Source: a virus. From it: DNA of 27,275 bases. Of the stretch, positions 3,921-22,704 are shown piece by piece. The DNA lies in the IMG/VR virus record IMGVR_UViG_3300033141_003121, positions 1 to 27,275 of that record. One strand, 5' to 3'. The position numbers and the translations under genes are program-made. The notes below the pieces were generated by a model. The model was given only the letters and a program-made list of their open reading frames with translations, was not told the DNA's origin and did no database searches. The number at the start of each line of letters is the position of its first letter. Position 1 is the first letter of the stretch.

Positions 3921-4229
3921 ATGGCTGAACAAGCAGGTTGGAATGTAGCGGCTACGGCCACTGCCGGGATAGCGACGGCACTAAAAGCGGCGGCTGCGAA
4001 TAAAGAGCACATCATCCAATCTGTGGATGCCAGTGCTGTAGGGGCAGCCGAAATACTATTACTACAAATCAAGGATGATACCACCATAATTTGGGAGGGC
4101 CACGTACATCAGTCACGTGGAGTAGTTTTCCCCAAAGGATTATCAATTACCCGTGGCGGCGCATGTAGTGCAGTATTAGCTGCTGGTGCTGGTGTAACAA
4201 AAGTTAATCTACATGGGATAACGCGATAA
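3921..4229 (+). CDS. Small beta-sandwich virion-associated protein
   Basis: A 102-residue protein with an Ala-rich start (AGWNVAATATAGIATALKAAA) followed by regular beta strands (HIIQSVDASAVG, EILLLQIKDDTTIIWEGHVH, GVVFPKGLSITRGG, TKVNLHGITR). This pattern, ending in a VNLHG-type strand, is common in short phage proteins found between capsid and tail genes. It probably folds as one beta sandwich and may decorate the virion. AGGAGAAATTTAG precedes the ATG. Its stop overlaps the next start (TAATG), so the two are probably translated together. No specific function can be assigned. Confidence 0.55.
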   Translation: MAEQAGWNVAATATAGIATALKAAAANKEHIIQSVDASAVGAAEILLLQIKDDTTIIWEGHVHQSRGVVFPKGLSITRGGACSAVLAAGAGVTKVNLHGITR

Positions 4230-4462
4230 TGAATGGTGTTGACACTAAAGCTTTGGAAAAAGCCACGGAGGCCCTAGTGAAAATAGAATCCCATGAAAGG
4301 GTTTGTTCGGTAAGATATAAGGAAATATCGGATGGACAAAAAGCTATTTTTCATAAATTAGATGAATTAGGTAAGAACAATTTTAACAGGTGGATGCAAA
4401 TAGCGGGTGCCCTTATCATGGCCCTGCTAACCGTTATAGCATTTTTATATAAGGCAACTTAA
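4229..4462 (+). CDS. Small membrane protein, XhlA/holin-accessory-like
   Basis: A 77-residue protein with a charged helical N-terminal part (residues 6-50, including KIESHERVCSVRYKEISDGQ) and one C-terminal transmembrane helix (about residues 55-74, WMQIAGALIMALLTVIAFLY) ending in a short tail with lysine. This layout matches the XhlA family, which acts with holins in phage-mediated lysis. It is also a generic layout for small phage membrane proteins. It sits two genes before a signal-peptide protein with an outer-membrane anchor and another single-pass membrane protein, so the three may form an envelope or lysis group. The lysis role is inferred. Confidence 0.55.
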   Translation: MNGVDTKALEKATEALVKIESHERVCSVRYKEISDGQKAIFHKLDELGKNNFNRWMQIAGALIMALLTVIAFLYKAT

Positions 4463-4900
4463 ATGACCTGGACTTATTCCGGTGATCCCGGCTCAACATC
4501 CAGAGATGAAGTTCGATTTTTAATCGGAGACACTGATAATGGTGATCAGATAGTCTCCGATGAAGAAATTGCTTACGCAATTGCTCAGGAAGGTAATAAT
4601 CGTTTAGCAGCAATTAGGGTTATACGGGCTACTGCTGGTAAATATGCCAGGAAAGTTGATAAAGCCGTTGGCGATCTTAAGATGTCTTATGGCCAGATAG
4701 CCAAGCATTACATGGATTTAGCAGTATTTCTTGAATCTTCTGATGATAATTTATACGCACCAATGGCTTATGCTGGTGGTATCACACATTCAGGTAAAGA
4801 TTCAGTAAAAGCAGACACGGATCGAGTGGACCCATCATTTACCAAGGGCGTACATGATAATCCGGAAAATAACAATGATGACAGGGAGTCTCCAGAATGA
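4463..4900 (+). CDS. Head-tail adaptor (connector) protein, gp6-like
   Basis: A 145-residue protein whose first 90 residues match the common phage head-tail adaptor: DEVRFLIGDTDNGDQIVSDEEIA, then helices with AAIRVIRATAGKYARKVDK and GQIAKHYMDLAVFLE. These small helical proteins sit below the portal and form the first connector ring. The C-terminal 40 residues are acidic, polar and probably disordered (NPENNNDDRESPE). Its ATG directly follows the previous stop (TAA then ATG), and its own end overlaps the next gene by 4 bases. The other neck genes, head closure, tail completion and tail terminator, are not next to it but about 17.8 kb downstream. Confidence 0.75.
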   Translation: MTWTYSGDPGSTSRDEVRFLIGDTDNGDQIVSDEEIAYAIAQEGNNRLAAIRVIRATAGKYARKVDKAVGDLKMSYGQIAKHYMDLAVFLESSDDNLYAPMAYAGGITHSGKDSVKADTDRVDPSFTKGVHDNPENNNDDRESPE

Positions 4901-5223
4901 AAAAAATTTTATTGGTGCTTTTATTAATTAGCCCGAGTGTGATGGCCGGTGATCCACATCATTCTCACAATACCGGAACAGTGGTAATATTGGCTGATAA
5001 TACATTCGGTGCGGCATCAGCAGCAGCCCAGGCGCAACATCACCCATACTATGGGACCCGAAAGTTGCAGGGGTCGTTTGGTCTAGGTAGCTTTGAGGGG
5101 GAGTATGCCACCTCAGTTGGGCTGGCCCAGCAGTTAGGTGCGGGGAAGGTAATGATGAATGGTACCGCCACCCAGGAACGTGGTAAAATATCCTATGGTA
5201 TAGGGGCTAACTGGAAATTCTGA
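4897..5223 (+). CDS. Secreted mini-protein with YadA-like outer-membrane anchor and no passenger
   Basis: This 108-residue protein has a clear signal peptide (MKKILLVLLLISPSVMA, likely cleaved after Ala17), a His-rich stretch (DPHHSHNTG), an Ala-rich helix around residues 38-47, then about 50 residues with the strand pattern of the trimeric autotransporter C-terminal anchor: GSFGLGSFEGEYATSVGLAQ, a short turn and KISYGIGANWKF. It ends in Phe, as outer-membrane barrel proteins do. Known YadA anchors trimerise into a 12-stranded barrel. The stalk and head of a normal adhesin are absent. It overlaps its neighbours on both sides. Possible roles are outer-membrane disruption at lysis or receptor masking; both are speculation. 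A fortuitous beta-rich secreted protein is the alternative. Confidence 0.65.
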   Translation: MKKILLVLLLISPSVMAGDPHHSHNTGTVVILADNTFGAASAAAQAQHHPYYGTRKLQGSFGLGSFEGEYATSVGLAQQLGAGKVMMNGTATQERGKISYGIGANWKF

Positions 5224-5459
5224 TGAAATTTAAAACCGTAGCAGAAAATATAATAAAACCACTTTTAGATAATAAAAAGTGGGTTCTATTGATTACTGTT
5301 GGTTTAACTGGTTGGGGCTATACGGCCTATGATTTTATTGAACAAGAACACGTACCCCCTGTTGTCGCAGAAGAGGGGGCCAAACCAACGCAAGATGTTA
5401 AAACCATCTGCGCAGATTTAATTAGAAAACATGTTACTAACATTCATTTAGAGGACTAG
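5223..5459 (+). CDS. Small single-pass membrane protein, unknown
   Basis: A 78-residue protein with a basic N-terminus (MKFKTVAENIIKPLLDNKK), one transmembrane helix (about residues 20-37, WVLLITVGLTGWGYTAY) and a 40-residue C-terminal part with an acidic and proline-containing linker (HVPPVVAEEGAKP) and one Cys (ICADLIRKHV). Basic residues before the helix suggest the N-terminus stays in the cytoplasm and the C-terminal part faces the periplasm. Its start overlaps the previous stop (TGATG), so it is translationally coupled to the YadA-like protein. An inner-membrane spanin-like role is possible, but the periplasmic part is short for that. Confidence 0.55.
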   Translation: MKFKTVAENIIKPLLDNKKWVLLITVGLTGWGYTAYDFIEQEHVPPVVAEEGAKPTQDVKTICADLIRKHVTNIHLED

Positions 5460-5462
5460 ATA

Positions 5463-7889
5463 ATGGCAGCGATAGCAGACGCAGATGTAAGTATTGCCGC
5501 AAGTGGGGCTATCCGGTGGACGGGTGCAGCTACCACCAATAAGCACACAGTACTGGAATTCATTCAGTTTATGATGAATAAGCAGGATGATGAACAGGCA
5601 GCTGGTGACATCTTATTGGATATCACGGTTGACACTCCTTTTGATAGAAAGACCGATACCATCGTCAACTTGAACTTCCCGTTCAATATCGATGATACCT
5701 TTGCCACACATTTATATGATGGTTCGGTGCAACAAGCCCTGGATGCAAATAACTCCGATGGCACGTTGTATTCTGGTTTAGAGGTACTTGGCCCAGTTGA
5801 GACCGGCACTGAATATATGATTCTACAGGCAGGTCGTGTACTCCCTGCTTTCTGGGGCACAGGTATCAATTCCCCCGGCGGTGCATCATTAGTATTCTCA
5901 CGTCACTTAGTTAAATCACGTGAGGGTGGGTCTGATATCGATGGTAAACGTATTGTGGTATTAGCCAGAACGCTGGGGGATGGTTACAGACGATTCCCAG
6001 TACAGCTCGGTACAGCTAATGCTGTTGCCGCTATTGGTAATGGTGCTGATATTTTCAACACTACTTCAGATGCCGCACTGGCAGCTTATGATGGTACCAT
6101 CCTAAACACCGAAGGGTTCCAGGAATTGGACATCGATGCCACTGGCGCTACTGGCCAGGAATTCTATTCCAAATGGGACACCGGCGGGCAGTCAATCAAT
6201 GACGTCTATGAGTTTGGTAAATTTACCACACAAAATGCACATATCGCTGATGCAACAGCAGGTACATTAGTTACAGAACAATTAACTGAAGCACGTTTCC
6301 AGATCAAAATCGGCGCTGATGGCGGTGGTTTGACCGGGACATTGTATGCTGAGTTGTGGGATTCCGATGACATAGGTTCGCAGTTAGCTGAGCCTTCAGG
6401 TGCTGCCTTAGCGCGTTCTGAGGATATTTTGGTCAGTGCGATCACTACCGGTTATGAAGAGGTTATTTTCCGTTTCAATCGAAAAGACCCAACTGGTGCT
6501 ATCGCAGCGCAGGCAACCCAGCGTGATCTAGTTAATGCTGAGTACTTCATTGTGCTGAGACACCTTGAGGGCGATGCATCTAATTATCTGGTTGCTGAGG
6601 GGGCCGCTACTGATCAGGATGCTACCCAGAACACCGCATCAGATACAGGCGCTGTATGGACAGCAGTTGCAACATCAGATATCAATCTGATTGTTAAATC
6701 TTCCCCGGAAATTCACGGCATTGCTGGTGAAACCCTGGAAGGAATCTCAGCCGAGGTCCTATTTGATAATGAATCAGGTACTGGCGTCGTTGAAGATCAG
6801 ATTGTTAATTGGGGCACTGAGCTAGTTATAGATACCTATACTGGTACATTTATCGAGGGCGAACATGTTAGAATATTCGCCGATGGTGGCACGACCGTTA
6901 AGAATGGTGGGCAACTATTATATGATAATGGTTCAACTGCTATGATCTTGGCACTTGATGATATCAGTAGTAATTTACTTGATAATGATGACATCGTTGG
7001 TGTTATATCAGGTGCCACAGCTAAGATCGCTACCACTATCACAAGTATGGATAAGTCTGGTGGTACTGGATTGCTCCTGGCTAAAGATGATAATGGTGTG
7101 AATGGTGAACTTTACATCCAGTTAATTACCGGTGTAAATCCTGTTGATAATTCACGAATTTACGCTCCGGGTTCCGTCGCTAATTTCGTCGATGCTGCAA
7201 CCACTATTAATTCCAGAACATTGAATCCTGAATTTATGGGAGTATCAACTGGTTCCAATATCATCGGCGCATATGGCATCGGTTTTGACCCCAATGATGT
7301 TGGTGCATCCGATCTATTTACCTCACTGGATAACAGCAGCAGAACTCCACCAAATAATCAGACCTTTACGGTCTCGGGTGTAGTCTCAGGTGAAGATCGG
7401 ATATTGGTCGGACCGCGTGTTGGCACAGCCCTGGATTCTGGTCAGTGGCTATTAGCTACTGCTTTAATTGGCGGCACTGAGACTGCCGTGGTTGTTAAGA
7501 CTGGAACGGAAACTATTCCGAACTTGGCCGGTGACACACCCGCATCTGGTAAGGCTGCGGATAACCCCGCCTTGCGTATCGCTTTGGATTCGGGCATTCG
7601 GGGCTATCAGGACTATGAATCACATGATGGTGTAGATACATTTACCATTTTGTCTTCAAGCTATTCTGGTGACATTGCTTCGGTAAACAATGAGGTATAT
7701 TTAGCTTATATTGATGTTCTGGCAGATGCTACGTTGGAATCATACACAGCTACCTACGTTTCGGATAGGGACCTGTTCGTGCGAGTTCGTGATGGCGGCG
7801 GTACTCCGATCAAGACATTTGAATCGGATTCGGCGCAGTTCCTATCAACACCGCAAACAGTGGCTGCAGTTCGGACGCCTGACGTTTAA
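5463..7889 (+). CDS. Large multi-domain virion structural protein
   Basis: This 808-residue protein has no signal peptide or membrane helix and is dominated by beta strands and Gly, Asp, Thr and Ala. Residues about 1-215 form an N-terminal domain with VLEFIQFMMNKQDDEQAAGD and VVLARTLGDGYRRFPV, which resembles large structural proteins of environmental phages. Residues about 255-420 read as a jelly-roll-like sandwich (EARFQIKIGADGGG, GTLYAELWDSDD, EEVIFRFNRKDPTG). Residues about 430-560 repeat the motif of phage fibre linkers (GTFIEGEHVRIF, DDIVGVISGATAKI). The C-terminal 200 residues are further sandwich-like. It opens a run of fibre-type genes. Only a weak GAGG precedes the ATG, 3 bases after the prior stop. 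Its place in the particle is unknown. Confidence 0.65.
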   Translation: MAAIADADVSIAASGAIRWTGAATTNKHTVLEFIQFMMNKQDDEQAAGDILLDITVDTPFDRKTDTIVNLNFPFNIDDTFATHLYDGSVQQALDANNSDGTLYSGLEVLGPVETGTEYMILQAGRVLPAFWGTGINSPGGASLVFSRHLVKSREGGSDIDGKRIVVLARTLGDGYRRFPVQLGTANAVAAIGNGADIFNTTSDAALAAYDGTILNTEGFQELDIDATGATGQEFYSKWDTGGQSINDVYEFGKFTTQNAHIADATAGTLVTEQLTEARFQIKIGADGGGLTGTLYAELWDSDDIGSQLAEPSGAALARSEDILVSAITTGYEEVIFRFNRKDPTGAIAAQATQRDLVNAEYFIVLRHLEGDASNYLVAEGAATDQDATQNTASDTGAVWTAVATSDINLIVKSSPEIHGIAGETLEGISAEVLFDNESGTGVVEDQIVNWGTELVIDTYTGTFIEGEHVRIFADGGTTVKNGGQLLYDNGSTAMILALDDISSNLLDNDDIVGVISGATAKIATTITSMDKSGGTGLLLAKDDNGVNGELYIQLITGVNPVDNSRIYAPGSVANFVDAATTINSRTLNPEFMGVSTGSNIIGAYGIGFDPNDVGASDLFTSLDNSSRTPPNNQTFTVSGVVSGEDRILVGPRVGTALDSGQWLLATALIGGTETAVVVKTGTETIPNLAGDTPASGKAADNPALRIALDSGIRGYQDYESHDGVDTFTILSSSYSGDIASVNNEVYLAYIDVLADATLESYTATYVSDRDLFVRVRDGGGTPIKTFESDSAQFLSTPQTVAAVRTPDV

Positions 7890-7891
7890 AA

Positions 7892-8287
7892 ATGATTACC
7901 GTCATCATTCCTTGGGACGAGGTGCAGATGCCAGCTGCTGTGGAATGGCAGTTATGGCGTCAGCTTAAAGGGGTTTTTTCTATCGACCACTTTATTTTTG
8001 TGCCCCGTGTCCAGCTTGTATTAAATCTTGGCTATGATCATGTTGACACCATGGAGGAAGCCTTAGCCCTGAGCACCGGGGCTAGGGTATTTCTTGAGGC
8101 AGGTGGCGTAAAGGGGATGAATGATATCCCAGACGGGGATATTACGATAATTGTTGGTAATACTAGCACAAGTAATGCTAAACACGCACAGGCCGACGAG
8201 CTATACTCTATTAACACTTCAGGGGTGGGGGATATGTATGGGGTCAATGCTGCTGCAATCGCCTTAGCGTTTAAGGCCGGGCAGTGA
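7892..8287 (+). CDS. Conserved phage protein of unknown role, weak SPOUT-like pattern
   Basis: A 131-residue globular protein starting 2 bases after the previous stop without a clear Shine-Dalgarno, so it probably depends on re-initiation. It reads as alternating strands and helices: TVIIPWDEVQ, a helix (VEWQLWRQLKG), IDHFIFVPR, EEALALSTGARVFLEAGG, DITIIVGNTSTSNAKHA, YSINTSGVGDMYGVNAAAIAL. The last two pieces recall the GN- and SLN-A-A motifs of SPOUT methyltransferases, but key residues are not clearly kept and the protein is short. Similar small proteins occur between fibre genes of marine phages, as I recall. Its GTGA end overlaps the next gene, which ties it to the fibre operon. Function unknown. 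Confidence 0.5.
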   Translation: MITVIIPWDEVQMPAAVEWQLWRQLKGVFSIDHFIFVPRVQLVLNLGYDHVDTMEEALALSTGARVFLEAGGVKGMNDIPDGDITIIVGNTSTSNAKHAQADELYSINTSGVGDMYGVNAAAIALAFKAGQ

Positions 8288-10209
8288 GTTCAGACAATCG
8301 TACGCAGTTAAATGACTGCGAGGACGATGCCCAGACTTTCCAGACTTTCTCAACAACTGGCGCTGCATTAGGCACAAACGCGTTGGCTGGCCATGTCATT
8401 GAACAGTCGAATTCAGTTCAAGTTCAGCATTCCAATGTTTATGATGATACTTATACCGTTGGTGATTCCGCCGCTGCGACATTTAATTTAGATTTTTCGG
8501 ATCAAACTGTTTATCTGATGGTCAAAGATAACGGGCTTGATCTTTACAATGTATCCGGTTCGTCAATTGTTCTTGGCGATGGAACTGATCGTATCGGTTA
8601 TAGTGTCGGTGGATCTGATGCTGTTGGCATGTCCTATGCTAAACAGTTTATTGCTTTTAAATTAGATGGTTCTGATGCGGCAGCGAACCCTGGTACCGCT
8701 GATGTTAATCACCACGTTTTTGCGGGCACTGAAGCTAATCTTGATTTTACACAGATTACCACAGTCGGTTTTGGGTCACTCCATGCCGCAAAAGCCGGTG
8801 GTAATGTTGTAAATGTCTTTATTGATGGTATTTATTATATCGCTAATGGTAGTTATGCACTAACGATCAACGGGGGTACGGTCGGCACACCAGAGACAAT
8901 GACTGATGTGGCGGGAGATGATATAACAAGTGGTTGGGGTTTAGTTTCCAATCCTTTGGGCTCACAATATGTATTCTTTTCACCCACCGAGTGGGGTGAA
9001 TCAGTTGCAAGTGCGGATCACTATTTTACAGCTGATGGTGAACAATGGTACTGGATGGGCGATAATTCAGGTGGCCGGGCTATCGGGGCTGATAATTTCG
9101 ATTTCAGGGTGATTGGGAATGCAACCAATACTGGCCTATGGCAAATTACTAATGTTGCGATCGTTAGTACAGGCGCTAGGGCTAATTTCCTGATGGATGA
9201 TGCTAACGTCAATACCTTGGAGGTTGATACTTGCTCGATGACCGGACTTGGTACTATCGGCGCTCCGTCCTCCGGGGGAACTAGCCGTTATTGTATTAAT
9301 ACAATCTTTTCGGATTGCAACCAGATAACCCACAATGGTGCGGATATGTCCGGTTGTAGTATTTTACTATCTAATGTTGCAGCAGGTAGTGGGGCGTTAT
9401 TTTACAACGAGACCGCTGACCCTGATGGTGAAATGGATAATGTGGTTTTCTCGCAGGGCGCAGCTGCCCATTCTGCGATTGAATTCGGCATTAGTGTTAC
9501 AACAGATGTCACATTAAGAGGCATTGATTTCACAGGATTTGGCTCAACTGATGATGTAAATGGCGCAGTATTTAAATTCCTGGCCACAACTGGGAGCCTC
9601 AACCTTAATCTCGTAGGCTGTACGACTGATGGTACGTTCAGTGTGGATGACTCAGCAGGTATCATAGTAACGGTCGTAATCGACCCTGTTACTACCTTGG
9701 TCCATGTGGATGATAATATTGGTGACGATTTACAGAATTGTCTCGTAATATTGGAGGCTTCTGACGGCACCGGTGACTATCCATTTGAGGACACAATAAC
9801 GATAACAGCATCAGGCACCACCGCTTCTGTGGCTCACACAGCTCACGGGATGAAGAATAATGATAAAGTGGTTGTCAGGTATGCTGCTGAAAATGAATAC
9901 AATGGTGTGTTTGCAATTTCCAATGTCACCACTAACGCTTATGATTATACTATGACGGGTTCACCTTCCTCCCCCGCAACTACCAACCCGGACAGGGCGG
10001 CTATACTTGCCTCTGGCGTAGCACTACATGGCTTAACTGATGTAAATGGTGATATATCGGCATCTAGAACATATACAATAAGTACACCGGTAAAAGGATT
10101 CGCTAGAAAATCCACTTCTTCACCGAGATTTAAATCATTCCCATTAAGTGGTATCATAAATAACACATTAGGGTTGACACTGAGTGCCAGATTAATATTA
10201 AATGAGTAA
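8284..10209 (+). CDS. Fibre-like virion protein, probable beta-helix
   Basis: A 641-residue beta-rich protein starting at GTG 8284, which overlaps the previous stop (GTGA). Residues about 1-180 form a lectin-like sandwich (VIEQSNSVQVQHSN, QTVYLMVKDNGLDLYN, QFIAFKLDGSDAA). Residues about 180-480 have the short repeated strands and polar turns of a right-handed beta-helix (VNTLEVDTCSMTGLG, GCSILLSNVAAGS, VTLRGIDFTGFG). Residues about 500-572 hold a module I recognise from many phage fibres: SVAHTAHGMKNNDKVVV, then EYNGVFAISNVT. The last 60 residues match a terminal module of the same proteins. It probably is a tail or head fibre subunit. An overlapping minus-strand frame at its end is not taken as a gene. 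Confidence 0.65.
   Translation: MSSDNRTQLNDCEDDAQTFQTFSTTGAALGTNALAGHVIEQSNSVQVQHSNVYDDTYTVGDSAAATFNLDFSDQTVYLMVKDNGLDLYNVSGSSIVLGDGTDRIGYSVGGSDAVGMSYAKQFIAFKLDGSDAAANPGTADVNHHVFAGTEANLDFTQITTVGFGSLHAAKAGGNVVNVFIDGIYYIANGSYALTINGGTVGTPETMTDVAGDDITSGWGLVSNPLGSQYVFFSPTEWGESVASADHYFTADGEQWYWMGDNSGGRAIGADNFDFRVIGNATNTGLWQITNVAIVSTGARANFLMDDANVNTLEVDTCSMTGLGTIGAPSSGGTSRYCINTIFSDCNQITHNGADMSGCSILLSNVAAGSGALFYNETADPDGEMDNVVFSQGAAAHSAIEFGISVTTDVTLRGIDFTGFGSTDDVNGAVFKFLATTGSLNLNLVGCTTDGTFSVDDSAGIIVTVVIDPVTTLVHVDDNIGDDLQNCLVILEASDGTGDYPFEDTITITASGTTASVAHTAHGMKNNDKVVVRYAAENEYNGVFAISNVTTNAYDYTMTGSPSSPATTNPDRAAILASGVALHGLTDVNGDISASRTYTISTPVKGFARKSTSSPRFKSFPLSGIINNTLGLTLSARLILNE
10174..10201 (+). promoter_or_regulatory. 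Candidate sigma-70-type promoter before the coiled-coil gene
   Basis: TTGACA (10174-10179) is a perfect -35 hexamer. A 16-base spacer leads to TATTAA (10196-10201), four of six matches to the -10 consensus. It overlaps the end of the preceding fibre gene and would start RNA just before the site AAAAAGGAGCG of the gene at 10225. The weak -10 makes this tentative. Confidence 0.3.
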
Positions 10210-10224
10210 AAAGGAGCGTATAAT

Positions 10225-10602
10225 ATGGGCAATAAAGATGATGATTTAGTGATGGACGGTTTCAAAAAGCTTGACCCACATCTAACTAGCACAAAGGCCC
10301 CCCGGATCAAATGGGGCGATAAATATAAGAGTTGGTCCCCCGAACGGAGACTTAAGTATGTGGAGGATTTGGCCGCTAGTATGAATAATGCTGCAGCGAT
10401 TATCCAGGAAGAAAGGAATGAGTTAGGCCGATTGTGCGAAATGAAAGAAAAACAACTAATTAAAATTAGTGCGGAATTAACTCGGAATAATGAGATGATT
10501 TTAGCTGAAGTAACCAAGATGAACGAATATAAGCAAAGCACTAATCTAGAAATCGCTCGATTGAATGGTATCATTAGAGGTTTCAACGCTGAGGCAAGCT
10601 GA
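10225..10602 (+). CDS. Small coiled-coil protein, unknown
   Basis: A 125-residue charged protein. Residues about 25-45 contain aromatic and basic residues (PRIKWGDKYKSWSPERRL). Residues about 48-118 form a long helix with heptad spacing of hydrophobics (AAAIIQEERNELGRLC, AELTRNNEMILAEVTKM, LEIARLNGIIRGF), so it is probably a coiled-coil oligomer. It has a strong site (AAAAAGGAGCG) and a candidate promoter just upstream, and its stop overlaps the start of the next fibre gene (TGATG). A role as fibre chaperone or linker is plausible from position, but I do not recognise the family. Confidence 0.6.
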   Translation: MGNKDDDLVMDGFKKLDPHLTSTKAPRIKWGDKYKSWSPERRLKYVEDLAASMNNAAAIIQEERNELGRLCEMKEKQLIKISAELTRNNEMILAEVTKMNEYKQSTNLEIARLNGIIRGFNAEAS

Positions 10603-11891
10603 TGGCGATAACAGTCGATTATATAACTAAAGTTATATCTGTGCCACAGGGCGATTTAACGTTCGTCTCCGGAACGCTGTATGAATTAGATACAGAGACA
10701 TTCCGCCAAACGATGAAATCGATTGAAGCCAGTGAGAATGGTATACATTTTGATGATATGCACCAACGTAATGCGCCCTACACTGTGGCCGGTGTTACTT
10801 ATGCTCAATCAATTGAAATAATCAATGGTTATTCCGTTACGTTTACCCCCAATTCTGCTTGGTCTGTGCGTTTGATCGGCAGTAACAACAATATATTTGA
10901 TATCGAGAGTGGTATTTTAAATCAGAATCAGGTCCAGGTTATACCCACTAATTCAGCTGGGTTGATCGACGTTAATAAGCAAGATATAGAGTCAGGCGCT
11001 TATAATTCCCAAATTTACCTTGACACTACTAACGGAACGGATGGAGTAGGTCACCCATTTGGTGCTGAACGCGCACCGGTTAAAACTCAGGCGGTGGCAG
11101 TTACCCGAGCGGTAGATAGGGCGATTAATAGAATTAAAATCGTCAACCCCATAACAACGATAGATAATACTGTCTCTATGGATGGTTATTTATTGCTCGG
11201 GGATAGTCGAGCCTCGACGGTGGTGACTTTTGTCGATGCCGACACCGGCGACATGGGTTTACATAATTTACATTTTACCGGCTCAATGAATGGTGGGATA
11301 AATGCTGATAAATGCGTCATCGGAACGATTACCGGTGCCGGTTGCACAGTAAACGAGACTCTTTTTACCGATTGTTTATTCGAGGGGAATGTTCAGATTC
11401 GACCAGATAATACGCAGCCCTTCGCAATCGTTAATTGTGGCTCCATTGAAAATAATCAGATGGTTTTAGACGTTAACGGCACATCCGGTGATGTTACCAT
11501 CCAGAATTACGCCGATAGAATTAAAATAATCAATATGACGACTGCGATTAATTTACACATTTCTTCGGCGGCTGGTTGTGAACTAGATATAGATGCTAGT
11601 TGCACAGCAGTGAGCCTGCTAGAGGTTCACGGCAACGTAAATATCATTAATAATAGCGGGCTAAGCGTCGACGATGATACAGCCCAGGCTTTAGTGTGGC
11701 AGGAAATCATTGAGACTGAAGGCAATTACACGGGTCAGCAGGTAATGTCGATAATTTTGGCCGTCTTAGCAGGTATAACAACAGATGCAGGTGCCACATT
11801 TAAAACACCGAATGGTGTGGCCACCCGTGTAGCAGCTATTTTGAATGATAATAATGAGAGAACGAGTCAAACATTAACACCGAGTAGTTAA
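10602..11891 (+). CDS. Virion protein with right-handed beta-helix, fibre or baseplate type
   Basis: A 429-residue protein with three parts. Residues about 1-125 are a small beta domain common to phage proteins (VPQGDLTFVSGTLYELD, SIEIINGYSVTFTP). Around residue 140 begins a segment typical of this family (SQIYLDTTNGTDGVGHPFG, then a helix with VTRAVDRAINRIKIV). Residues about 180-360 show beta-helix rungs (LHNLHFTGSMNGGINADKC, CTVNETLFTDCLFEGN, VTIQNYADRIKIINM). The last 70 residues are helical followed by a short tail. Such proteins are usually annotated as phage structural or fibre proteins. It starts by TGATG overlap with the coiled-coil gene and is followed after 2 bases by the next virion gene. 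Confidence 0.65.
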   Translation: MAITVDYITKVISVPQGDLTFVSGTLYELDTETFRQTMKSIEASENGIHFDDMHQRNAPYTVAGVTYAQSIEIINGYSVTFTPNSAWSVRLIGSNNNIFDIESGILNQNQVQVIPTNSAGLIDVNKQDIESGAYNSQIYLDTTNGTDGVGHPFGAERAPVKTQAVAVTRAVDRAINRIKIVNPITTIDNTVSMDGYLLLGDSRASTVVTFVDADTGDMGLHNLHFTGSMNGGINADKCVIGTITGAGCTVNETLFTDCLFEGNVQIRPDNTQPFAIVNCGSIENNQMVLDVNGTSGDVTIQNYADRIKIINMTTAINLHISSAAGCELDIDASCTAVSLLEVHGNVNIINNSGLSVDDDTAQALVWQEIIETEGNYTGQQVMSIILAVLAGITTDAGATFKTPNGVATRVAAILNDNNERTSQTLTPSS

Positions 11892-11893
11892 CA

Positions 11894-13273
11894 ATGGCTT
11901 CAAATGATCAAACTTTTTGGCAGAAGTATTTCAGCAGAAAATATTGGCACCAGAATTATTGGGTAGGTCAATTTATAACACAGGTAGTGGACGCTATGAA
12001 AGAAAACGATTTTACTTCTAAGGGCCATGCGCACAAGCTTGATGGTGAAAGCGGCACGTCCATTAAAACAATACCGGGCGGGGGTGCTGCCGATGCTTTC
12101 GGTAGGATGAGGGTATCATCGCCCCATACCTCATTCCAGGCCATGTTGGAGTACGGATTAAATTCTGCGTTTTATGATCAGGATTTAACCGGATCTGCTA
12201 CTGCTGTCCATGATGCTAATTTATCAGCTGTTAAGTTGAAATGCACTACGGCATCTGGTGATAAATGTATAAGGCAATCATCAACTTATGTGGCTTACCA
12301 ACCGGGTAAATCTCAATTGATAATGGCCTCGGGTGTTATGGGTGCGGCTAAATCAGGAGTGCGCCAGAGAATCGGATTTTTTGATGATAATAATGGTTTA
12401 TTCTTCGAGCAAACCAGTAGTGGGATCAGTGTGGTTCGTAGAACATCCACTTCAGGGTCACCTGTTGATGAAGCGAAACCACAAGCTGAATGGAATATGG
12501 ACACATTTAATGGTAGCAAGACTTATCGAAATGCCAACCAATTGGATGTAGATTTATCAAAAGTACAGATATTCTTTATTGATTTTGAATGGCTGGGCGC
12601 GGGCACCGCACGATTGGGTTTTGTAATCGATGGTGAAATACACTATTGTCATGAATTTGCTGCAGCTAATGTTTTAACAACGCCTTATATGACTACACCT
12701 AATTTACCAATACGGTATGAGATTGAAAATATATCCACTGCAGCCAGTGCTACTGAAATGTTGCAAATATGTGGCACTGTTATTAGTGAAGGTGGCTTTG
12801 AAAGGCATGGTTTGGTCCATGCAGCAGGTACTTCAACGGCTGGTGTTACCGTTGGTGGGACGGAAGTTCCACTATTTAGTATACGCCCAGCATTATTATT
12901 CGGAGGTAAAAGTAATCATTCTATTGCATATCCGTTGATTTTAAGTGCACTTAATAATAATGTGGCAGACTTACAATATAGAATACGTATTAATGGGATT
13001 TTAACCGGAACGCCATCCTGGAGTTCAGTGGAGTCTGATTCAATGATGGAAATTGATATTGCCGCAACAGGTATAACCGGGGGGCATGTCCGTCATACGG
13101 GGTATTTAAGTGGTTCCGGTCAGGGATCATCAGATAGAGTGTCCACTGAACAGAATGATATACCATTGAGTGTACATATGGGTGATGTCCAAGATATTTT
13201 AACAGTTACGGGTATTAGTTTAGGGGGGAATATCAATGTCAATGCTTCAATGTCTTGGCGTGAATTTCTTTAG
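11894..13273 (+). CDS. Conserved phage virion protein (DAFGRMRVSSP family), probable fibre
   Basis: This 459-residue protein contains a block I recognise from many environmental phages: DAFGRMRVSSP (about residues 67-78), then YVAYQPGKSQLIMASGV, GVRQRIGFFDDNNGLFFEQ, VQIFFIDFEWLGAGTARLGF and NLPIRYEIEN. In relatives these form a conserved beta-sandwich core annotated as a structural or tail-fibre protein. The N-terminal 65 residues are aromatic and helical (FWQKYFSRKYWHQNYWVG), possibly an attachment segment. The C-terminal third is variable, consistent with a receptor-facing end. It starts 2 bases after the preceding stop. A 69-base gap, the longest in the window, follows it. Confidence 0.7.
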   Translation: MASNDQTFWQKYFSRKYWHQNYWVGQFITQVVDAMKENDFTSKGHAHKLDGESGTSIKTIPGGGAADAFGRMRVSSPHTSFQAMLEYGLNSAFYDQDLTGSATAVHDANLSAVKLKCTTASGDKCIRQSSTYVAYQPGKSQLIMASGVMGAAKSGVRQRIGFFDDNNGLFFEQTSSGISVVRRTSTSGSPVDEAKPQAEWNMDTFNGSKTYRNANQLDVDLSKVQIFFIDFEWLGAGTARLGFVIDGEIHYCHEFAAANVLTTPYMTTPNLPIRYEIENISTAASATEMLQICGTVISEGGFERHGLVHAAGTSTAGVTVGGTEVPLFSIRPALLFGGKSNHSIAYPLILSALNNNVADLQYRIRINGILTGTPSWSSVESDSMMEIDIAATGITGGHVRHTGYLSGSGQGSSDRVSTEQNDIPLSVHMGDVQDILTVTGISLGGNINVNASMSWREFL

Positions 13274-13283
13274 ATAATGGGTA

Positions 13284-13313
13284 TTGACAGAGGTAGTGGC
13301 TGTAGATTTTACT
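13284..13313 (+). promoter_or_regulatory. Candidate sigma-70-type promoter before the first modification module
   Basis: TTGACA (13284-13289) is a perfect -35 hexamer; after 18 bases, TTTACT (13308-13313) matches four of six -10 positions. It lies in the longest gap of the window and would drive the methyltransferase and sulfotransferase-DUF115 genes, whose start at 13343 has the site AAGGAGC. No terminator is seen in the gap, so read-through is also expected. Confidence 0.35.
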
Positions 13314-13342
13314 TTTAGGGCGAATTAAGGAGCGCTTAAATT

Positions 13343-13945
13343 ATGAACACACATCAAGAAGAGAAAGAAAAATACGAAAAATGTTGGAATACTGAAGGGT
13401 ATCGGATACACTCGCCCGGAGAAAATAGTCTAAAAGCTTTTGAGGAGATTGTTGATCCGCCTGAATTCAGTAGAATAGTTGATTGCGGAAGTGGGACGGC
13501 CAGGGCCAGTTTAGCATTAGCGGAATTGAATTATAGTGTTATGATGCTGGATATCACCGATCAATCTATGGATGATGAAGTTAAAGAAGCCGTTGCCGTT
13601 AAGGATAATTTAAATTTCCACGAAGTTAATTTATGGGAAACAATAGGTATGGATAGTCACGCTTTCGATTACGACTATGCTTATTGTTGTGATGTTATGG
13701 AACATATCCCCACTGAATATGTCATGTTGACCCTACAAAATATCATGAATACCTGTCGGGAGGGAGCATTTTTCTACATATGCTTAGTTCCAGATGGGTT
13801 TGGGAAAATCATAGGTGCTCCCCTTCACCTGACAGTTAAGCCGTTTATATGGTGGCGGGATAAGTTAGCTGAGCTCGGTGAGGTGGTTGATGCACGTGAT
13901 CTATTAACTAATGGTATGTATTATGTAAAACGGAGGTCATTATGA
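13343..13945 (+). CDS. Class I SAM-dependent methyltransferase
   Basis: A 200-residue Rossmann methyltransferase. Motif I is IVDCGSGTARASLALAE (about residues 49-65), the acidic end of strand 2 is MMLDITD, and the motif IV region is YAYCCDVMEHIP (about residues 113-124). After the core comes HLTVKPFIWWRDKL (about residues 155-168), a segment shared with the second methyltransferase at 24360 (HVTVKDSDWW). The substrate cannot be read from the sequence; no DNA-methylase motif such as DPPY or NPPF is visible, so a small molecule or glycan is more likely than DNA. A candidate promoter and a good ribosome site precede it. It overlaps the sulfotransferase-DUF115 gene by ATGA, so the two products probably act together. 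Confidence 0.8.
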   Translation: MNTHQEEKEKYEKCWNTEGYRIHSPGENSLKAFEEIVDPPEFSRIVDCGSGTARASLALAELNYSVMMLDITDQSMDDEVKEAVAVKDNLNFHEVNLWETIGMDSHAFDYDYAYCCDVMEHIPTEYVMLTLQNIMNTCREGAFFYICLVPDGFGKIIGAPLHLTVKPFIWWRDKLAELGEVVDARDLLTNGMYYVKRRSL

Positions 13946-15417
13946 TCTTCGTAACAGGTGCAGCTCGATCAGGTACTTCCATGGTAGCCCGCATTCTTAA
14001 TGATTGCGGTGCCTGGGTTGGTACTACGGGGCCGAAAAGTGATGAAAACCCCAATGGGTTCTATGAAAATATCGGTATACGTGATGGAGTGGTAAAGACC
14101 ATGTTGGCTATGATGGGGGCCGATCCACTGGGTATGTCCCCCCTGCCCTCCCGAGATATCTTCTCGGGCCTTACACTACGACCCCTTATTGATAGGTTCC
14201 TGGATAGTGATGGCTACTCGGAGATACCCGGAGGGGCCCCGTGGATATATAAGGATGCTAAGCTACTACTGATGTGGCGTGACTGGGCCGCTACGTACCC
14301 CCATTCAATATGGGTCCTGGTTCGTCGGGAACGTGAAGAATTAATCGATGCATGTTGCCGCACCTCATTTATGAATATCGCCCAGTATGGTGTTCGGGAC
14401 CGGGAATTTTGGGCACAATTGGTAGATGAATATTTGGAACGGGCTGAGGAATTAAAAGCATCTGGGGCGAATGTCATTGAAGTTGACGCCAATGCCCTAA
14501 TCAAGGGAGATATCAGTTCATTAAAACCCGTTATTGAAAATGCTGGCCTGGATTGGGACCCCGAGAAAATTAAGAAAAATATCATGCCCAACCTGTGGGG
14601 TGAGGACAAAACGGTTATGTCCCGTTTAGAGATGAACATGGGTATGAATGTTTCCGATGAGATTATTTTAGATAACATCAGAGTTAATATCAAGCGCCAA
14701 CTTCCACAGGTCAAACCTTATGAAATTAATAGTCAAAAGATTGCTATCGTGGCTGGCGGTCCTTCCCTCAGTGATACACTTCCTGAGTTGCGTAGACAGG
14801 TTGAAGATGAAGGTATTAAGTTGGTGGCGGTCAATAACACACATGACTGGTTGGTAGAGAGAGGATTTAAACCATCGATTCATGTCATGGTGGATGCTCA
14901 ACAGCATAATGTTAAATTTGTGCAGAACCCTATAAAATCCTGTAAATATTTAATGGCATCTCAATGCCACCCTGATGTATTTGATGCACTGGAAGGATAT
15001 AATACCCAGATATTCCATCTTCTCAATAAATCGGGGGAGGAAAAAGTCCTGGATGAATATTATTATAAGAAGTACCATTTTGTTGTAGGTGGGTCGACTG
15101 TGACTCTCAGGGCGATATGGATGATGAGAATGTTGGGGTTCACCAAAATGGATGTTTATGGTTTTGATTCCTGTTACATGGACGGTAAGCATCACGCTTA
15201 TGATCAAATCGAAAATGATAGATGTGAAGTGCGTGAATTAACATGTGCAGGTAAAAAATTTCAATGTGCTGCATGGATGGCTAGTCAATTTGAGGATTTC
15301 CAACATTTTATCATATCATTGGGTGATAAATTTGAATTAAATGTTCACGGCAATGGTTTGATAGCACATATGATGAATGAAGGGGCGAAATTACAATCAA
15401 CTGTAGGAGGTGATTAA
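13942..15417 (+). CDS. Sulfotransferase-like domain fused to DUF115 (Maf/MptE-like) domain
   Basis: This 491-residue protein joins two domains. Residues about 1-225 resemble PAPS-dependent sulfotransferases: a P-loop-like GAARSGTSMVARIL (residues 6-19) for the 5'-phosphosulfate and WVLVRREREELIDACCRTSF (about residues 123-142) corresponding to the 3'-phosphate site. Residues about 266-480 are a DUF115 domain as in flagellin Maf glycosyltransferases and MptE: KIAIVAGGPSLSDTLPEL, VAVNNTHDWLVERGFKPSIH, VVGGSTVTLRAIWMMRMLGF and DVYGFDSCYMDGKHHAY. A SAM methyltransferase is encoded directly upstream. GGAGGT precedes the ATG. The likely role is to build or modify a glycan on the virion or host surface. 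The fusion itself is unusual to me, and whether both domains are active is unknown. Confidence 0.75.
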   Translation: MIFVTGAARSGTSMVARILNDCGAWVGTTGPKSDENPNGFYENIGIRDGVVKTMLAMMGADPLGMSPLPSRDIFSGLTLRPLIDRFLDSDGYSEIPGGAPWIYKDAKLLLMWRDWAATYPHSIWVLVRREREELIDACCRTSFMNIAQYGVRDREFWAQLVDEYLERAEELKASGANVIEVDANALIKGDISSLKPVIENAGLDWDPEKIKKNIMPNLWGEDKTVMSRLEMNMGMNVSDEIILDNIRVNIKRQLPQVKPYEINSQKIAIVAGGPSLSDTLPELRRQVEDEGIKLVAVNNTHDWLVERGFKPSIHVMVDAQQHNVKFVQNPIKSCKYLMASQCHPDVFDALEGYNTQIFHLLNKSGEEKVLDEYYYKKYHFVVGGSTVTLRAIWMMRMLGFTKMDVYGFDSCYMDGKHHAYDQIENDRCEVRELTCAGKKFQCAAWMASQFEDFQHFIISLGDKFELNVHGNGLIAHMMNEGAKLQSTVGGD

Positions 15418-15418
15418 G

Positions 15419-15874
15419 ATGGCGGCGCAAGCTTGGTTAGTTTATAGAAAATTTAAAGAATATGTGATGGACAATACTATCGATATCGACGGCGATATCT
15501 TTATGTTAGCATTATACACTAGTGCGTCCAATGCTGCAACGGATACTTTATCTCTACGTAGTGAGGTGACTAATGAGGTAACTAACGCCAACGGATATGC
15601 TACCGGTGGTAAAACAGCATCAGCAACTACTTGGTTAACAGGTGCATCATCAGGTGAAATGCGTTTTGATGCCACTGCTACGATTTGGTCCGCATCAGGT
15701 GGGGATATCGTCGATGCTAAATACGCGGTATTATATGATCAAACTACTGGTGCATCGGCAGGTGCCCAAAAATTGATCGCCAGTTCGCGATTATCTACTT
15801 CGCAGTTCACTATTACCAGCGGTAATACGTTAACAGTGACACCAAGTGCTAATGGTATTTTTGAACTGAATTAA
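15419..15874 (+). CDS. Small conserved phage virion protein
   Basis: A 151-residue protein starting at ATG 15419, one base after the previous stop and 8 bases after TAGGAGG; the upstream in-frame GTG at 15410 overlaps that ribosome site and is rejected. It begins with AWLVYRKFKEYVMDNTIDID, then FMLALYTSASNAATDT, a pattern found in many small phage virion proteins. The rest is beta-rich with Ser, Thr and Ala (NGYATGGKTASATTW, IVDAKYAVLYDQTTG, LTVTPSANGIFEL). Such proteins are probably trimeric and attached to tail or head fibres. Its stop overlaps the sigma-factor start (TAATG), which links virion and regulator translation. Precise role unknown. Confidence 0.6.
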   Translation: MAAQAWLVYRKFKEYVMDNTIDIDGDIFMLALYTSASNAATDTLSLRSEVTNEVTNANGYATGGKTASATTWLTGASSGEMRFDATATIWSASGGDIVDAKYAVLYDQTTGASAGAQKLIASSRLSTSQFTITSGNTLTVTPSANGIFELN

Positions 15875-16395
15875 TGGAACAGTATGACGAACACCATTCT
15901 TTTGTGCGCGGGCTATCTATTAAGACAGCCCGCTCTTATTATCCACTAATTTCGGATGATGATGCTGTGCAAATAGGCTGGGAAGGATTTTTGCAAGCAA
16001 AAAGATCGTGGAATGGCGTAGGTAATCTCCACGGTTTTGCATCCATCCGTATTCGCGGTGCTATCATAGATGAAGTTCGAAGATTAATCGGGCGGGGGAA
16101 CAGGTATAACAAGGAAGTTTTTCTGGATGATTTCGATGATGATGAGATCGGGGAGTTATTAAGTTATCGTGATCCTAATTTAGGGGTGGACCCGGCTAAA
16201 ACATTAACAGAAATGATCACCCCTGTTACAGACTCACGGGATAATTTTATTTTATTGATGTATTACGAGTATGATGTGGTCTTTGAGCAGATTGCGAGCA
16301 TGTTAGGTGTTACTGTATCAAGGATTAGTCAGTTGCACAGTAGAGGCATTAAGAAATTAAGAAAGGAACATGGTGTTATTGAGGGATTATTGTAG
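15874..16395 (+). CDS. Phage-encoded RNA polymerase sigma factor, FliA/sigma-28-like, lacking region 3
   Basis: A 173-residue sigma factor. Region 2 (about residues 28-77) shows DDDAVQIGWEGFLQAKRSW, FASIRIRGAIIDEVRR, which is the FliA/WhiG hallmark and binds core polymerase and the -10 element. Region 4 (about residues 120-164) shows LLMYYEYDVVFEQIASMLGV and SRISQLHSRGIKKLR, a helix-turn-helix that would read the -35 element. FliA proteins have about 240 residues with region 3 between; here only a 40-residue acidic linker (LDDFDDDEIGEL) is present. It starts by TAATG overlap with a virion gene, so it is made late. It may redirect host polymerase to phage late or host flagellar-type promoters; no matching promoters were recognised by eye. 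Confidence 0.8.
   Translation: MEQYDEHHSFVRGLSIKTARSYYPLISDDDAVQIGWEGFLQAKRSWNGVGNLHGFASIRIRGAIIDEVRRLIGRGNRYNKEVFLDDFDDDEIGELLSYRDPNLGVDPAKTLTEMITPVTDSRDNFILLMYYEYDVVFEQIASMLGVTVSRISQLHSRGIKKLRKEHGVIEGLL
15908..15940 (+). terminator. Hairpin with U-rich tail inside the start of the sigma gene
   Basis: GCGGGCT (15908-15914) pairs perfectly with AGCCCGC (15927-15933) across a 12-base loop, followed by TCTTATT. It lies within codons 12-22 of the sigma gene. It could act as an attenuator limiting sigma mRNA, but hairpins of this length also arise by chance in 27 kb. Confidence 0.25.
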
Positions 16396-16403
16396 AGGAG
16401 CGA

Positions 16404-16934
16404 ATGATGGAATTAAATCGACGTATAGGAGATATCAAACCCCGTACTGGCAGGGCGACATATGGGGAATTAGTAAATCTCAATAAAAAACAGATTATAG
16501 CCACCCCAGGTTATTTCAAGGTGTATGCAGGGGTTGTTGTTTTAGTTGCCAAGAGCGGTAATAAGACTGGTGCATTAAGTGTACTATTTCCCGGCGATAA
16601 CGTCTGCATATCACATGATTGTTGGGTCGAATCTTTAAGCAAATCTTCCTTATTTATAATTGATCCTATAATTGGTTTGGAAGTAAAACAATTTGCAGAT
16701 GCGGCTGTGCAGCAATTGGAAAATAGGGATTGGAATAGTAAGGAAAATTCATTTAAGAGATCAATCTATCAATTGTTGCAGAAATTCACCCAACACGGCA
16801 TTACTGGTGTGAATATTACTGAGATTGCTAAAGTAGTGGGGGCCTCACGGGAAACTACCGGTCGTCGGATTGATGAATTAATTAAAGAACATAAAATATC
16901 TAAAGTGGCTCCGTCATACTGGAGGACATTGTGA
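16404..16934 (+). CDS. Crp/Fnr-like transcription regulator
   Basis: A 176-residue protein resembling a shortened Crp/Fnr factor. Residues about 28-95 have the jelly-roll pattern of the cyclic-nucleotide-binding fold (GYFKVYAGVVVLVAKSG, LSVLFPGDNVCISHDCW), but the conserved RxE phosphate cassette that binds cAMP is not visible, so the ligand, if any, differs. Residues about 137-165 form a winged helix-turn-helix with NITEIAKVVGASRETTGRRI, matching the DNA-binding helices of the family. The start is at ATG 16404 or 16407, after GAGGAGC. It follows the sigma gene by 8 bases and overlaps the next gene by 4. The pair looks like a regulatory unit. Confidence 0.7.
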   Translation: MMELNRRIGDIKPRTGRATYGELVNLNKKQIIATPGYFKVYAGVVVLVAKSGNKTGALSVLFPGDNVCISHDCWVESLSKSSLFIIDPIIGLEVKQFADAAVQQLENRDWNSKENSFKRSIYQLLQKFTQHGITGVNITEIAKVVGASRETTGRRIDELIKEHKISKVAPSYWRTL

Positions 16935-17404
16935 GTAGAGTCAGAAGTTTCGCGGGTGTTAAAAATCAGGCATTGCGCGAGAAGGTGGATGTCATCACCA
17001 ACGAGCTACACGACCTGCTGGAAGATGCGTACTACGGAACGTATGTGTCCGACGGGGTGCGGATGTCTGACGGGTGGAAACATGGTGTATCTAAACCCTT
17101 CCTGAGTTGGGACGTGGAGCCTACGCTGCCAGAATCGCTGGCGTTGTTTCAGGCACTACATGGTATGTTGTTTCAAATCCACACACTGATGTTCCATGAG
17201 GTAAACCTGAAAGAGCCTGAACCATTATCGTCATCTGCTTATGACGATGACCTTGATGAAAATCAGAATCCAGTAAGTAAGGTATTAGTTATAGGTCAAC
17301 AGTTACTGCAAACAGCGTTGGAGACCGGAGTTAACCCTATACCAATGAAAAATTGGATTAAGTCTGAGGTACAGACACAGCTAGGTCATAATATTAACTT
17401 ATGA
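16931..17404 (+). CDS. Unknown protein, possibly virion-associated
   Basis: A 157-residue protein starting at GTG 16931 within the last codons of the regulator gene, with TGGAGGAC-like bases upstream. It is largely helical: KNQALREKVDVITNELHDLLE, LPESLALFQALHGMLFQIHTLM, and KVLVIGQQLLQTAL. The middle carries a polar acidic stretch (SSSAYDDDLDENQNP). No known domain, signal peptide or membrane helix is visible. Its base composition is more GC-rich than most of the window, like the next gene, which suggests both arrived together. The start of the next gene overlaps its stop (ATGA), so translation is coupled. I do not recognise the family. Confidence 0.5.
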   Translation: MSRVRSFAGVKNQALREKVDVITNELHDLLEDAYYGTYVSDGVRMSDGWKHGVSKPFLSWDVEPTLPESLALFQALHGMLFQIHTLMFHEVNLKEPEPLSSSAYDDDLDENQNPVSKVLVIGQQLLQTALETGVNPIPMKNWIKSEVQTQLGHNINL

Positions 17405-18924
17405 CTACGAAATTTATTACTCCAGTCGATATTACTCCGGGCACGGCAGGCTCATGGCAAGATATCGATGTCACCGCTTACGTCTCGGACAATGCTACTG
17501 GGGTAATTTGCAGAGTGACCACTGATGGCACTGGTAAGCTGCACTGGCGCAAAAATGGCAGTACAGATGCTTTGGAATATTTTTCTGATGCAAATGAACA
17601 TGTCTTTTTCCTGTGCGGCATCGATGGCTCCGATATATTCGAGATGTATATTAAAACACTATCGGTGGTTTACCTTGTGGGGTACACCGAGGATGAAGCA
17701 ACGTACTTCACTAACAGAACAGACATTCAAACTGGTTCAGCTAATGTATGGAACGACTATGATATTTCTAGTGATACCGGCGGGGACACAGCGGTAGCGG
17801 CGATAGTGAGCTTCCGTGGGGCGGGGCATCAAATATTTGGATTCAGAAAGAATGGCGGCACGGACGCCATACAACGACAGAAATATGGGTGGATCGGGGC
17901 CATCGTGGGGGTGGACGGCAGCGAAATTCTGGAAGGGTATCAAGACACCACGACTGACCCCGCTCAGCTAGAAGGTTATTTCACCGAAGGCATCAATATG
18001 TACACCAACGGGGTGGTCAACGACCTCGCTGATAATAAAGATTTCTACCAGCAGCTAGACCCCATGCCGGGAGTAGAAGGGATAATCGTGGAGGCAGAGG
18101 CGTCTTTTGCTCAAGCAGGCAATAGGGTTCGCACAAGGGGCTCAACCGATATGGCCTTCACCAACAACAACATGGATCAGCATATGTTCCACTTTGTCCA
18201 ATGCGATGCACTAGGTAGAACGGAGGGATTGATTGCATCGACCAGTATTGACTGGAACATCCTCGGCTACTGGGGGAAGCTATCCACCGCTGAAATCGTC
18301 GAGGTCACGTACCAAGTCAGCGCCAATGATCGAGACGGAGAAGAAATTGACGACACAACGTGGGATGAGGATGGGTGGGACTCGGACGGTATCCGTGTGG
18401 GGGACGACAGCGGAACAGATCACGATATGGGCATGGCTTGGACGGGGGTTGCGGTGCCTAAAGGCGCTAAGATATTATCGGCTACCATTGAGGTGTTTTG
18501 TAAGTGGGAGTCCAGCGTAGGCATCAATCCCCAGACATTAATGTACGGCTTCGCTGTCGATGATCTCGCTGCCTTCGGAGCATCTAACCGTCCCTCACAG
18601 ATAGCACAGACAACGGCGTTCGTTGACCAGAAATATGACGGCGAGGAAGATTACCGGGATGAGGAGTTTGTTCCCTTGTATGATGCTGCTGATCTTATTC
18701 AAGAAATAGTGGACAGAGATGGATGGGTATCGGGTAATGCTCTAGGTGTAGTCTGGAAGGAGAATGGGTCTCCTAGCAGCTACCGGTGGCAATTACAAAC
18801 CTACAACCGCAGCACAAGCCAAGCAGCGAAGATCACGATCAACTATATTGTACTGGGTGGGATACCGCACACGATCAGGAATCAATATAATTTTAGACAA
18901 ATGCCAGCATTATTAACGAGGTGA
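17401..18924 (+). CDS. Fibre-like virion protein with three tandem beta modules and a carbohydrate-binding-like C-terminus
   Basis: A 507-residue protein built from three diverged modules of about 95 residues (about 8-105, 106-202, 203-298). They share the RKNG(S/G)TDA strand and turn, the GxDGS(D/E)I(F/L)E block and a closing VGY/EGYF/LGYW strand. The C-terminal part (about 300-490) reads as a larger sandwich (VTYQVSANDRDGEEIDD, GAKILSATIEVFCKWE, LIQEIVDRDGWVSGNAL), resembling carbohydrate-binding modules of the DNRLRE/CBM96 type. Such a layout fits a receptor-binding fibre. The gene is GC-rich: bases 18361-18420 have 37 G or C of 60, against 13 of 60 at 24421-24480. It was probably acquired by exchange. 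Confidence 0.65.
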   Translation: MTTKFITPVDITPGTAGSWQDIDVTAYVSDNATGVICRVTTDGTGKLHWRKNGSTDALEYFSDANEHVFFLCGIDGSDIFEMYIKTLSVVYLVGYTEDEATYFTNRTDIQTGSANVWNDYDISSDTGGDTAVAAIVSFRGAGHQIFGFRKNGGTDAIQRQKYGWIGAIVGVDGSEILEGYQDTTTDPAQLEGYFTEGINMYTNGVVNDLADNKDFYQQLDPMPGVEGIIVEAEASFAQAGNRVRTRGSTDMAFTNNNMDQHMFHFVQCDALGRTEGLIASTSIDWNILGYWGKLSTAEIVEVTYQVSANDRDGEEIDDTTWDEDGWDSDGIRVGDDSGTDHDMGMAWTGVAVPKGAKILSATIEVFCKWESSVGINPQTLMYGFAVDDLAAFGASNRPSQIAQTTAFVDQKYDGEEDYRDEEFVPLYDAADLIQEIVDRDGWVSGNALGVVWKENGSPSSYRWQLQTYNRSTSQAAKITINYIVLGGIPHTIRNQYNFRQMPALLTR

Positions 18925-18927
18925 TTT

Positions 18928-19410: not shown

Positions 19411-19419
19411 GGGCCCAAT
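19399..19419 (+). promoter_or_regulatory. Hairpin over the stop codon and ribosome site before the repeat gene
   Basis: ATTGGG (19399-19404) pairs with CCCAAT (19414-19419). The loop holds the preceding stop codon TAG and the AGGGG that would act as ribosome site for the ATG at 19422. Folding could limit translation of the repeat protein unless ribosomes arrive from upstream. Confidence 0.3.
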
Positions 19420-19421
19420 AA

Positions 19422-22340: not shown

Positions 22341-22342
22341 TA

Positions 22343-22702: not shown

Positions 22703-22704
22703 AT

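Follow-up and report, generated by a model that had tools for sequence, protein, structure and literature searches.

What use could a phage have for the membrane anchor of a trimeric autotransporter adhesin without its stalk and head? The question is raised by a small gene in a 27,275-base virus record (the window, meaning the whole stretch of DNA analyzed here). The gene lies directly after a PHROG 1732 gene and downstream of the major capsid gene (Table 1), and by this position it belongs to a phage head-neck region, as an initial annotation had stated. PHROG 1732 is annotated as "unknown function" and we call its gene the neck gene from its position. The same annotation offered three roles for the product, namely opening of the envelope at lysis, blocking of receptors against superinfection, or incorporation into the virion.

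Table 1. Position of the anchor gene, parts of its product and neighboring features in the window.
Feature	Coordinates	Strand	Evidence or remark
Holin/XhlA-like small membrane protein	4229..4462	+	Weak: PHROG 689 holin, E 0.003
PHROG 1732 (neck) gene	4463..4900	+	PHROG 1732, E 3.9e-27
Anchor-only YadA-like gene, 108 aa	4897..5223	+	PF03895, ORF and overlaps, syntenic L007 homologue
Sec-type signal peptide, residues 1-17	4897..4947	+	Sequence read by eye, hydrophobic window, L007 pattern
Short His-rich mature N-terminus GDPHHSHNTGTVVILADN, residues 18-35	4948..5001	+	Sequence; His cluster also in L007
Predicted pore-plugging helix, residues 36-46	5002..5034	+	AlphaFold2 secondary structure, low confidence
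Four predicted beta strands and C-terminal Phe	5065..5220	+	PF03895 profile, AlphaFold2 model, fold searches
One-TM protein, 78 aa, N-terminal TM	5223..5459	+	ATGA overlap with anchor gene; partner candidate
Cargo insertion, neck gene to connector gene, anchor gene first	4897..22659	+	Comparison with relatives
Connector gene	22660-23034		17.7 kb beyond the neck gene in the window

The anchor gene and its product

The reading frame shares ATGA overlaps with both neighboring genes and forms part of a continuous gene string. A homologue occupies the same place at a second locus, L007, and the identities between the two genes at codon positions 1, 2 and 3 are 0.49, 0.53 and 0.32. Positions 1 and 2 are hence more conserved than position 3, the pattern expected of a gene under selection. 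From the overlaps, the homologue and the codon-position identities we conclude that this is a real gene. Judged by its position, it is probably transcribed with the head genes. A promoter scan around the gene remained at chance level and RNA folding at the gene start revealed nothing unusual. Terminator-like sites near the gene were more frequent than in shuffled sequence (5 versus a mean of 1.4), yet they are weak and lie inside genes.

Residues 1-17 (MKKILLVLLLISPSVMA) resemble, as read by eye, a Sec signal peptide, with two Lys, a hydrophobic core and V-M-A before the cut. The hydrophobic-window value is 3.0 and a lipobox Cys is absent. A profile search aligned residues 56-108 with positions 8-60 of the 60 positions of PF03895 (YadA_anchor; E 1.4e-8), and the score of 35.1 bits lies above the curated cut-off of 22.7 bits. 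An anchor-only HMM, built from just nine anchors of isolated phages, placed the window protein first with 12.3 bits, compared to 9.6 bits for the best of 2,000 shuffled controls; a line "orf7" in its output is apparently the same window ORF read from stop to stop. The alternation pattern of beta strands did not differ significantly from that of shuffled versions of the protein (p 0.14).

An AlphaFold2 monomer model, made from two input sequences only and of low confidence (pLDDT 53), contains a helix (36-46) and four strands (57-66, 69-80, 85-94, and 97-106) of 10-12 residues each. Helix and four strands per chain are the element set of an anchor. With this model, the four best Foldseek matches in the PDB were Hia and AtaA anchors (E 2.6e-3 to 1.2e-2), and VIA-align ranked Hia (Z 8.5), AtaA (7.8), and YadA (6.8) above unrelated folds, which started at 6.0. 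A Foldseek search with the model of the L007 homologue did not return autotransporter anchors, though the order of its elements is as in the window protein. Profile and fold together support the identity of the protein as a predicted exported, minimal YadA-type anchor.

The initial annotation had called the protein an anchor-only YadA-like protein, and this identity is borne out by the PF03895 match and by the fold matches to Hia, AtaA and YadA. Likewise, the signal peptide and an anchor ending in Phe were recovered, since the C-terminus reads NWKF. The terminal Phe would be an aromatic residue of the kind that BAM recognizes, as judged from the family. The description of an anchor without stalk or head also held; however, the barrel does not follow the signal peptide immediately, because about 18 His-rich residues and then the helix come first. 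These residues are the only mature sequence ahead of the helix, and a surface passenger is absent. In this the protein differs from YadA, Hia and AtaA, the bacterial type Vc proteins that share its anchor fold and profile and that carry a stalk-and-head passenger. What the window protein has in common with a full trimeric autotransporter adhesin at its N-terminus is the Sec signal peptide (by eye), not the passenger.

Relatives of the locus and the cargo slot

Direct sequence relatives of the window anchor were found neither in 50,697 phage records, nor among plasmids or PDB sequences, nor in one genome each for 84,980 species. Viral contigs searched with the anchor yielded the same population only, including a near-identical copy of the locus in contig IMGVR_UViG_3300033153_005536, and the one-TM gene as query also recovered this population only. 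The PHROG 1645 protein as query led to distant loci, all without an anchor. It was the PHROG 1732 neighbor gene that retrieved 80 loci, among them L007, which was thus reached via the neck gene and not via the anchor sequence. Capsid relatives have hosts among both diderm and monoderm bacteria, and a capsid query against the species genomes found no prophage.

At the same place, L007 encodes a 122-aa protein that is 37% identical to the window anchor, while the capsid proteins of the two are 88% identical. The L007 protein has a signal peptide and a His cluster (GGSHHHDQGDN), and both homologues have HHSH or HHH shortly behind the signal peptide. Its C-terminus is WVVK, and against PF03895 it scores 20.6-20.9 bits, just under the cut-off. 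In the records of 50 relatives the only PF03895 matches were those of the window and L007; the other 48 had none. Both lineages that have the anchor gene also have a one-TM gene behind it. The L007 partner (about 101 aa) is 22% identical to the window partner and contains HDH, HGH, and HH motifs, whereas the window partner is not His-rich. Profile searches with the 78-aa window partner gave no family match, and roughly 45 of its residues are predicted to lie in the periplasm.

Isolated phages with related capsid or neck genes, and likewise most of the viral contigs, have no comparable insertion behind the neck gene, and a connector-like gene is usually next. Where an insertion is present, its first gene varies: by eye it is radical-SAM-like in L004-L006 and methyltransferase-like in L011. 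In L090 the same slot holds an endolysin gene (PHROG 894, E 5.5e-20), followed by a PHROG 1645-type gene (by eye). The site between neck and connector genes is a cargo site that has at least once held a lysis gene. The varied contents of the slot, together with the lack of an insertion in most relatives, mark the anchor pair as accessory. Upstream of the neck gene, the holin/XhlA-like gene is conserved in close relatives, with weak matches; its L090 counterpart matches PHROG 689 (E 3e-4) and the hemolysin family PHROG 1193 (E 4e-4).

The insertion of the window carries further genes. A sigma-70-type factor and a weakly Crp-like winged-helix protein lie side by side (15874-16395 and 16404-16934; Sigma70_r4 E 1.5e-10, r2 E 1e-6) within this cargo of a structural-gene region. 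The insertion of a related 89-kb contig, G002, has a different sigma-like ORF at 74762-75229 (by eye). A 491-aa protein (13942-15417) combines a sulfotransferase domain (PF13469) with an MptE-like domain (PF01973), and with nearby methyltransferase-like and WaaZ-like genes it may belong to a glycan-modification set. At 19422-22340, a 972-aa protein is built from numerous imperfect repeats (FNLTISTFAPTVEHTTSESD...); the opposite strand has long open frames here, and G002 encodes a 374-aa counterpart. The product of 5463-7889 measures 808 aa compared to 831 aa in the near-identical contig (L002 2843-5338), and the window copy lacks a stretch of 23 residues. The ORF matching the 641-aa ORF at 8284-10209 is broken in L002.

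Bare anchors in other phages

When viral proteins were searched by structure, the matches included proteins encoded by Yersinia phages TG1 and phiR1-RT, which UniProt names YadA-like anchor-domain proteins. One of them, phiR1-RT g139, consists of a signal peptide and an anchor in 122 aa and matches 102 phage records, and the rarity implied by the initial annotation was therefore mistaken. In the T4-like phages inspected, bare anchors of 122-140 aa are encoded in a tRNA-rich non-structural region. The three that were scanned belong to PHROG 8062, annotated as function unknown; examples of this type are phiR1-RT g139, X20, PEi20 ORF150, PM2, and CGG4-1, and also CBH8 ORF145. Proteus phage PM2 encodes a LysM protein directly behind its bare anchor (L116 2930-3280). 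Phage-borne bare anchors are a known kind of protein, of which the window gene is a distant further example.

How distant it is becomes apparent from direct comparison. The window protein showed no significant pairwise similarity to g139 by blastp, and it matched PHROG 8062 with an E of only 0.034 (residues 38-107 to positions 140-208 of 209). It is thus the same kind of protein from a distant or separate lineage. The order of signal peptide, short linker, helix, PF03895 anchor and aromatic end is common to both, as is the occurrence in lytic phages. The PHROG 8062 anchors lie in tRNA-rich regions, whereas the window anchor sits in the head-gene string; those inspected have neither a TM gene directly behind them nor a His cluster, and the window has both. 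New in the window are the position within the head-gene string, a TM partner encoded by a coupled gene, and a cluster of His residues.

Larger anchor-bearing versions exist as well. phiEco32 (gp119), Salmonella phage SP-058 and Yersinia phage P778 encode mini-autotransporters of 265-329 aa that are exported and end in a PF03895 anchor like the window protein, but carry collagen-like repeats as a passenger, which the window protein lacks, and are annotated as agglutinating adhesin or tail protein. In phiEco32, gp117, two genes after gp119, is a cell-wall hydrolase (L112 4387-4776; PF07486, E 1.7e-7). The version of Erwinia phage Yoloswag has 742 aa, and in Salmonella phages such a gene has been mentioned as an adhesin (PMC3728262).

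Phenotypic data come from Serratia phage CBH8. The YadA-anchor-like ORF145 lies in a 6.5-kb region that is lost in toxin-antitoxin escape mutants (PMC5449768). The deletion mutant CBH8o is viable; its latent period of 25 min equals that of the parent, and its burst size is 28 versus 22 (PMC5449768). Because latent period and burst are kept, ORF145 is needed there for neither lysis nor assembly. Adsorption of CBH8o was lower in exponential phase, a result that the authors call provisional, and since the deletion covers 13-14 ORFs this change cannot be assigned to one gene (PMC5449768).

Possible roles in the infected cell

Among the three proposed roles, receptor blocking or another change to the envelope appears most compatible with these data. 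We tentatively propose, as a reading that may well apply but is far from secure, that the protein is an accessory outer-membrane anchor which modifies the host envelope at a late stage, for example by masking receptors. Within the family, three chains form a 12-stranded barrel, Bam recognizes the C-terminal motif, and the pore is closed by the segment in front of that motif (PMC3297439). By analogy, the window protein would be exported by Sec, the host BAM complex would recognize its C-terminal strand ending in Phe, and three chains would assemble in the host outer membrane into a barrel of 12 strands whose pore their helices plug. Nothing beyond a short His-rich tip would be displayed on the surface. 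Receptors might then be masked or crowded, such that sister or rival phages would not adsorb. As accessory cargo, the anchor gene would come and go as a unit with the one-TM gene that follows, whose product may help barrel assembly. An inner-membrane helper of a trimeric autotransporter has a precedent in SadB (PMC3953254), which is encoded with SadA in one operon, comparable to the window pair; SadB is a lipoprotein, however, and differs in this from the window partner with its TM segment, for which no family match was found.

A plugged barrel without passenger makes free leakage unlikely, which favors a surface-altering role over an essential one in lysis or in the virion, and the CBH8 data agree with this preference. 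Some points count against the envelope reading, the size of the CBH8 deletion with its 13-14 ORFs among them. The link to the T4-like anchors is one of fold and profile only, with the model at a pLDDT of 53, and the position in the head-gene string suggests late expression, when excluding other phages matters least.

A helper role in lysis, in which barrel and one-TM protein form an envelope-disrupting module with the upstream holin-like protein and weaken or open the outer membrane as infection ends, seems rather unlikely to us. An essential role is weakened by CBH8, where deletion of the anchor gene left latent period and burst unchanged (PMC5449768); the holin/XhlA-like gene just upstream of the neck gene and the L090 endolysin in the same slot speak for a helper role. 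The pairing of anchor and TM genes in both lineages and the hydrolase gene near the anchor-bearing gene of phiEco32 point in the same direction. Furthermore, a part in the timing of lysis has been suggested for the CsgG outer-membrane pores of phages (PMC9004378), and a spanin could not be recognized in 91 of 677 phages (PMC6139136). CsgG of pelagimyophages such as Melnitz is, like the predicted barrel of the window, an outer-membrane pore protein encoded by lytic phages, but its fold and assembly are unrelated. Leakage is not expected from a plugged autotransporter pore, and the G002 contig has amidase-like, cell-wall-hydrolase-like and holin-like genes elsewhere (by eye). A more specific version, in which the bare barrel takes the place of the o-spanin lipoprotein, with the one-TM protein as its partner in a two-gene lysis module at the slot that holds the endolysin in L090, we consider distinctly unlikely. 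A two-component spanin combines a lipobox o-spanin lipoprotein with an i-spanin, whereas the window pair has no lipobox, and the roughly 45 periplasmic residues of its TM protein are few for spanning the space between the membranes.

It is improbable that the gene is what decay has left of a complete trimeric autotransporter and that it no longer has a function. The missing passenger and the low identity of the anchors relative to the capsids of the window and L007 would fit decay, but frame, signal peptide, four strands and terminal aromatic residue are all intact, codon positions 1 and 2 are conserved above position 3, and bare anchors of the same design occur in many unrelated phages. We regard it as quite improbable that the protein acts as a pore or a surface patch which takes up or binds metal ions by means of its His-rich tip and a His-rich partner: the His clusters of both homologues and the His motifs of the L007 partner would suit it, but T4-like anchors lack the cluster, the window partner is not His-rich, and autotransporter pores are plugged. 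A place in the virion, as a trimeric tip or neck decoration, is very improbable despite the location among structural genes and the annotation of longer phage versions as "tail protein," given that the protein has a signal peptide, that comparable anchor-only forms sit in non-structural regions, that we saw no virion evidence behind the tail annotations, and that a published YadA match of a tail fiber concerns a head-type structure (3S6L) and not the anchor (PMC3909814).

Lytic phages of several kinds thus carry bare anchors, and the window adds a distant example with a fixed partner gene. Its distance and its different place in the gene order suggest that the design has been taken up more than once. 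Anchor and TM genes together offer a small two-gene unit for questions of outer-membrane insertion, exclusion or lysis.
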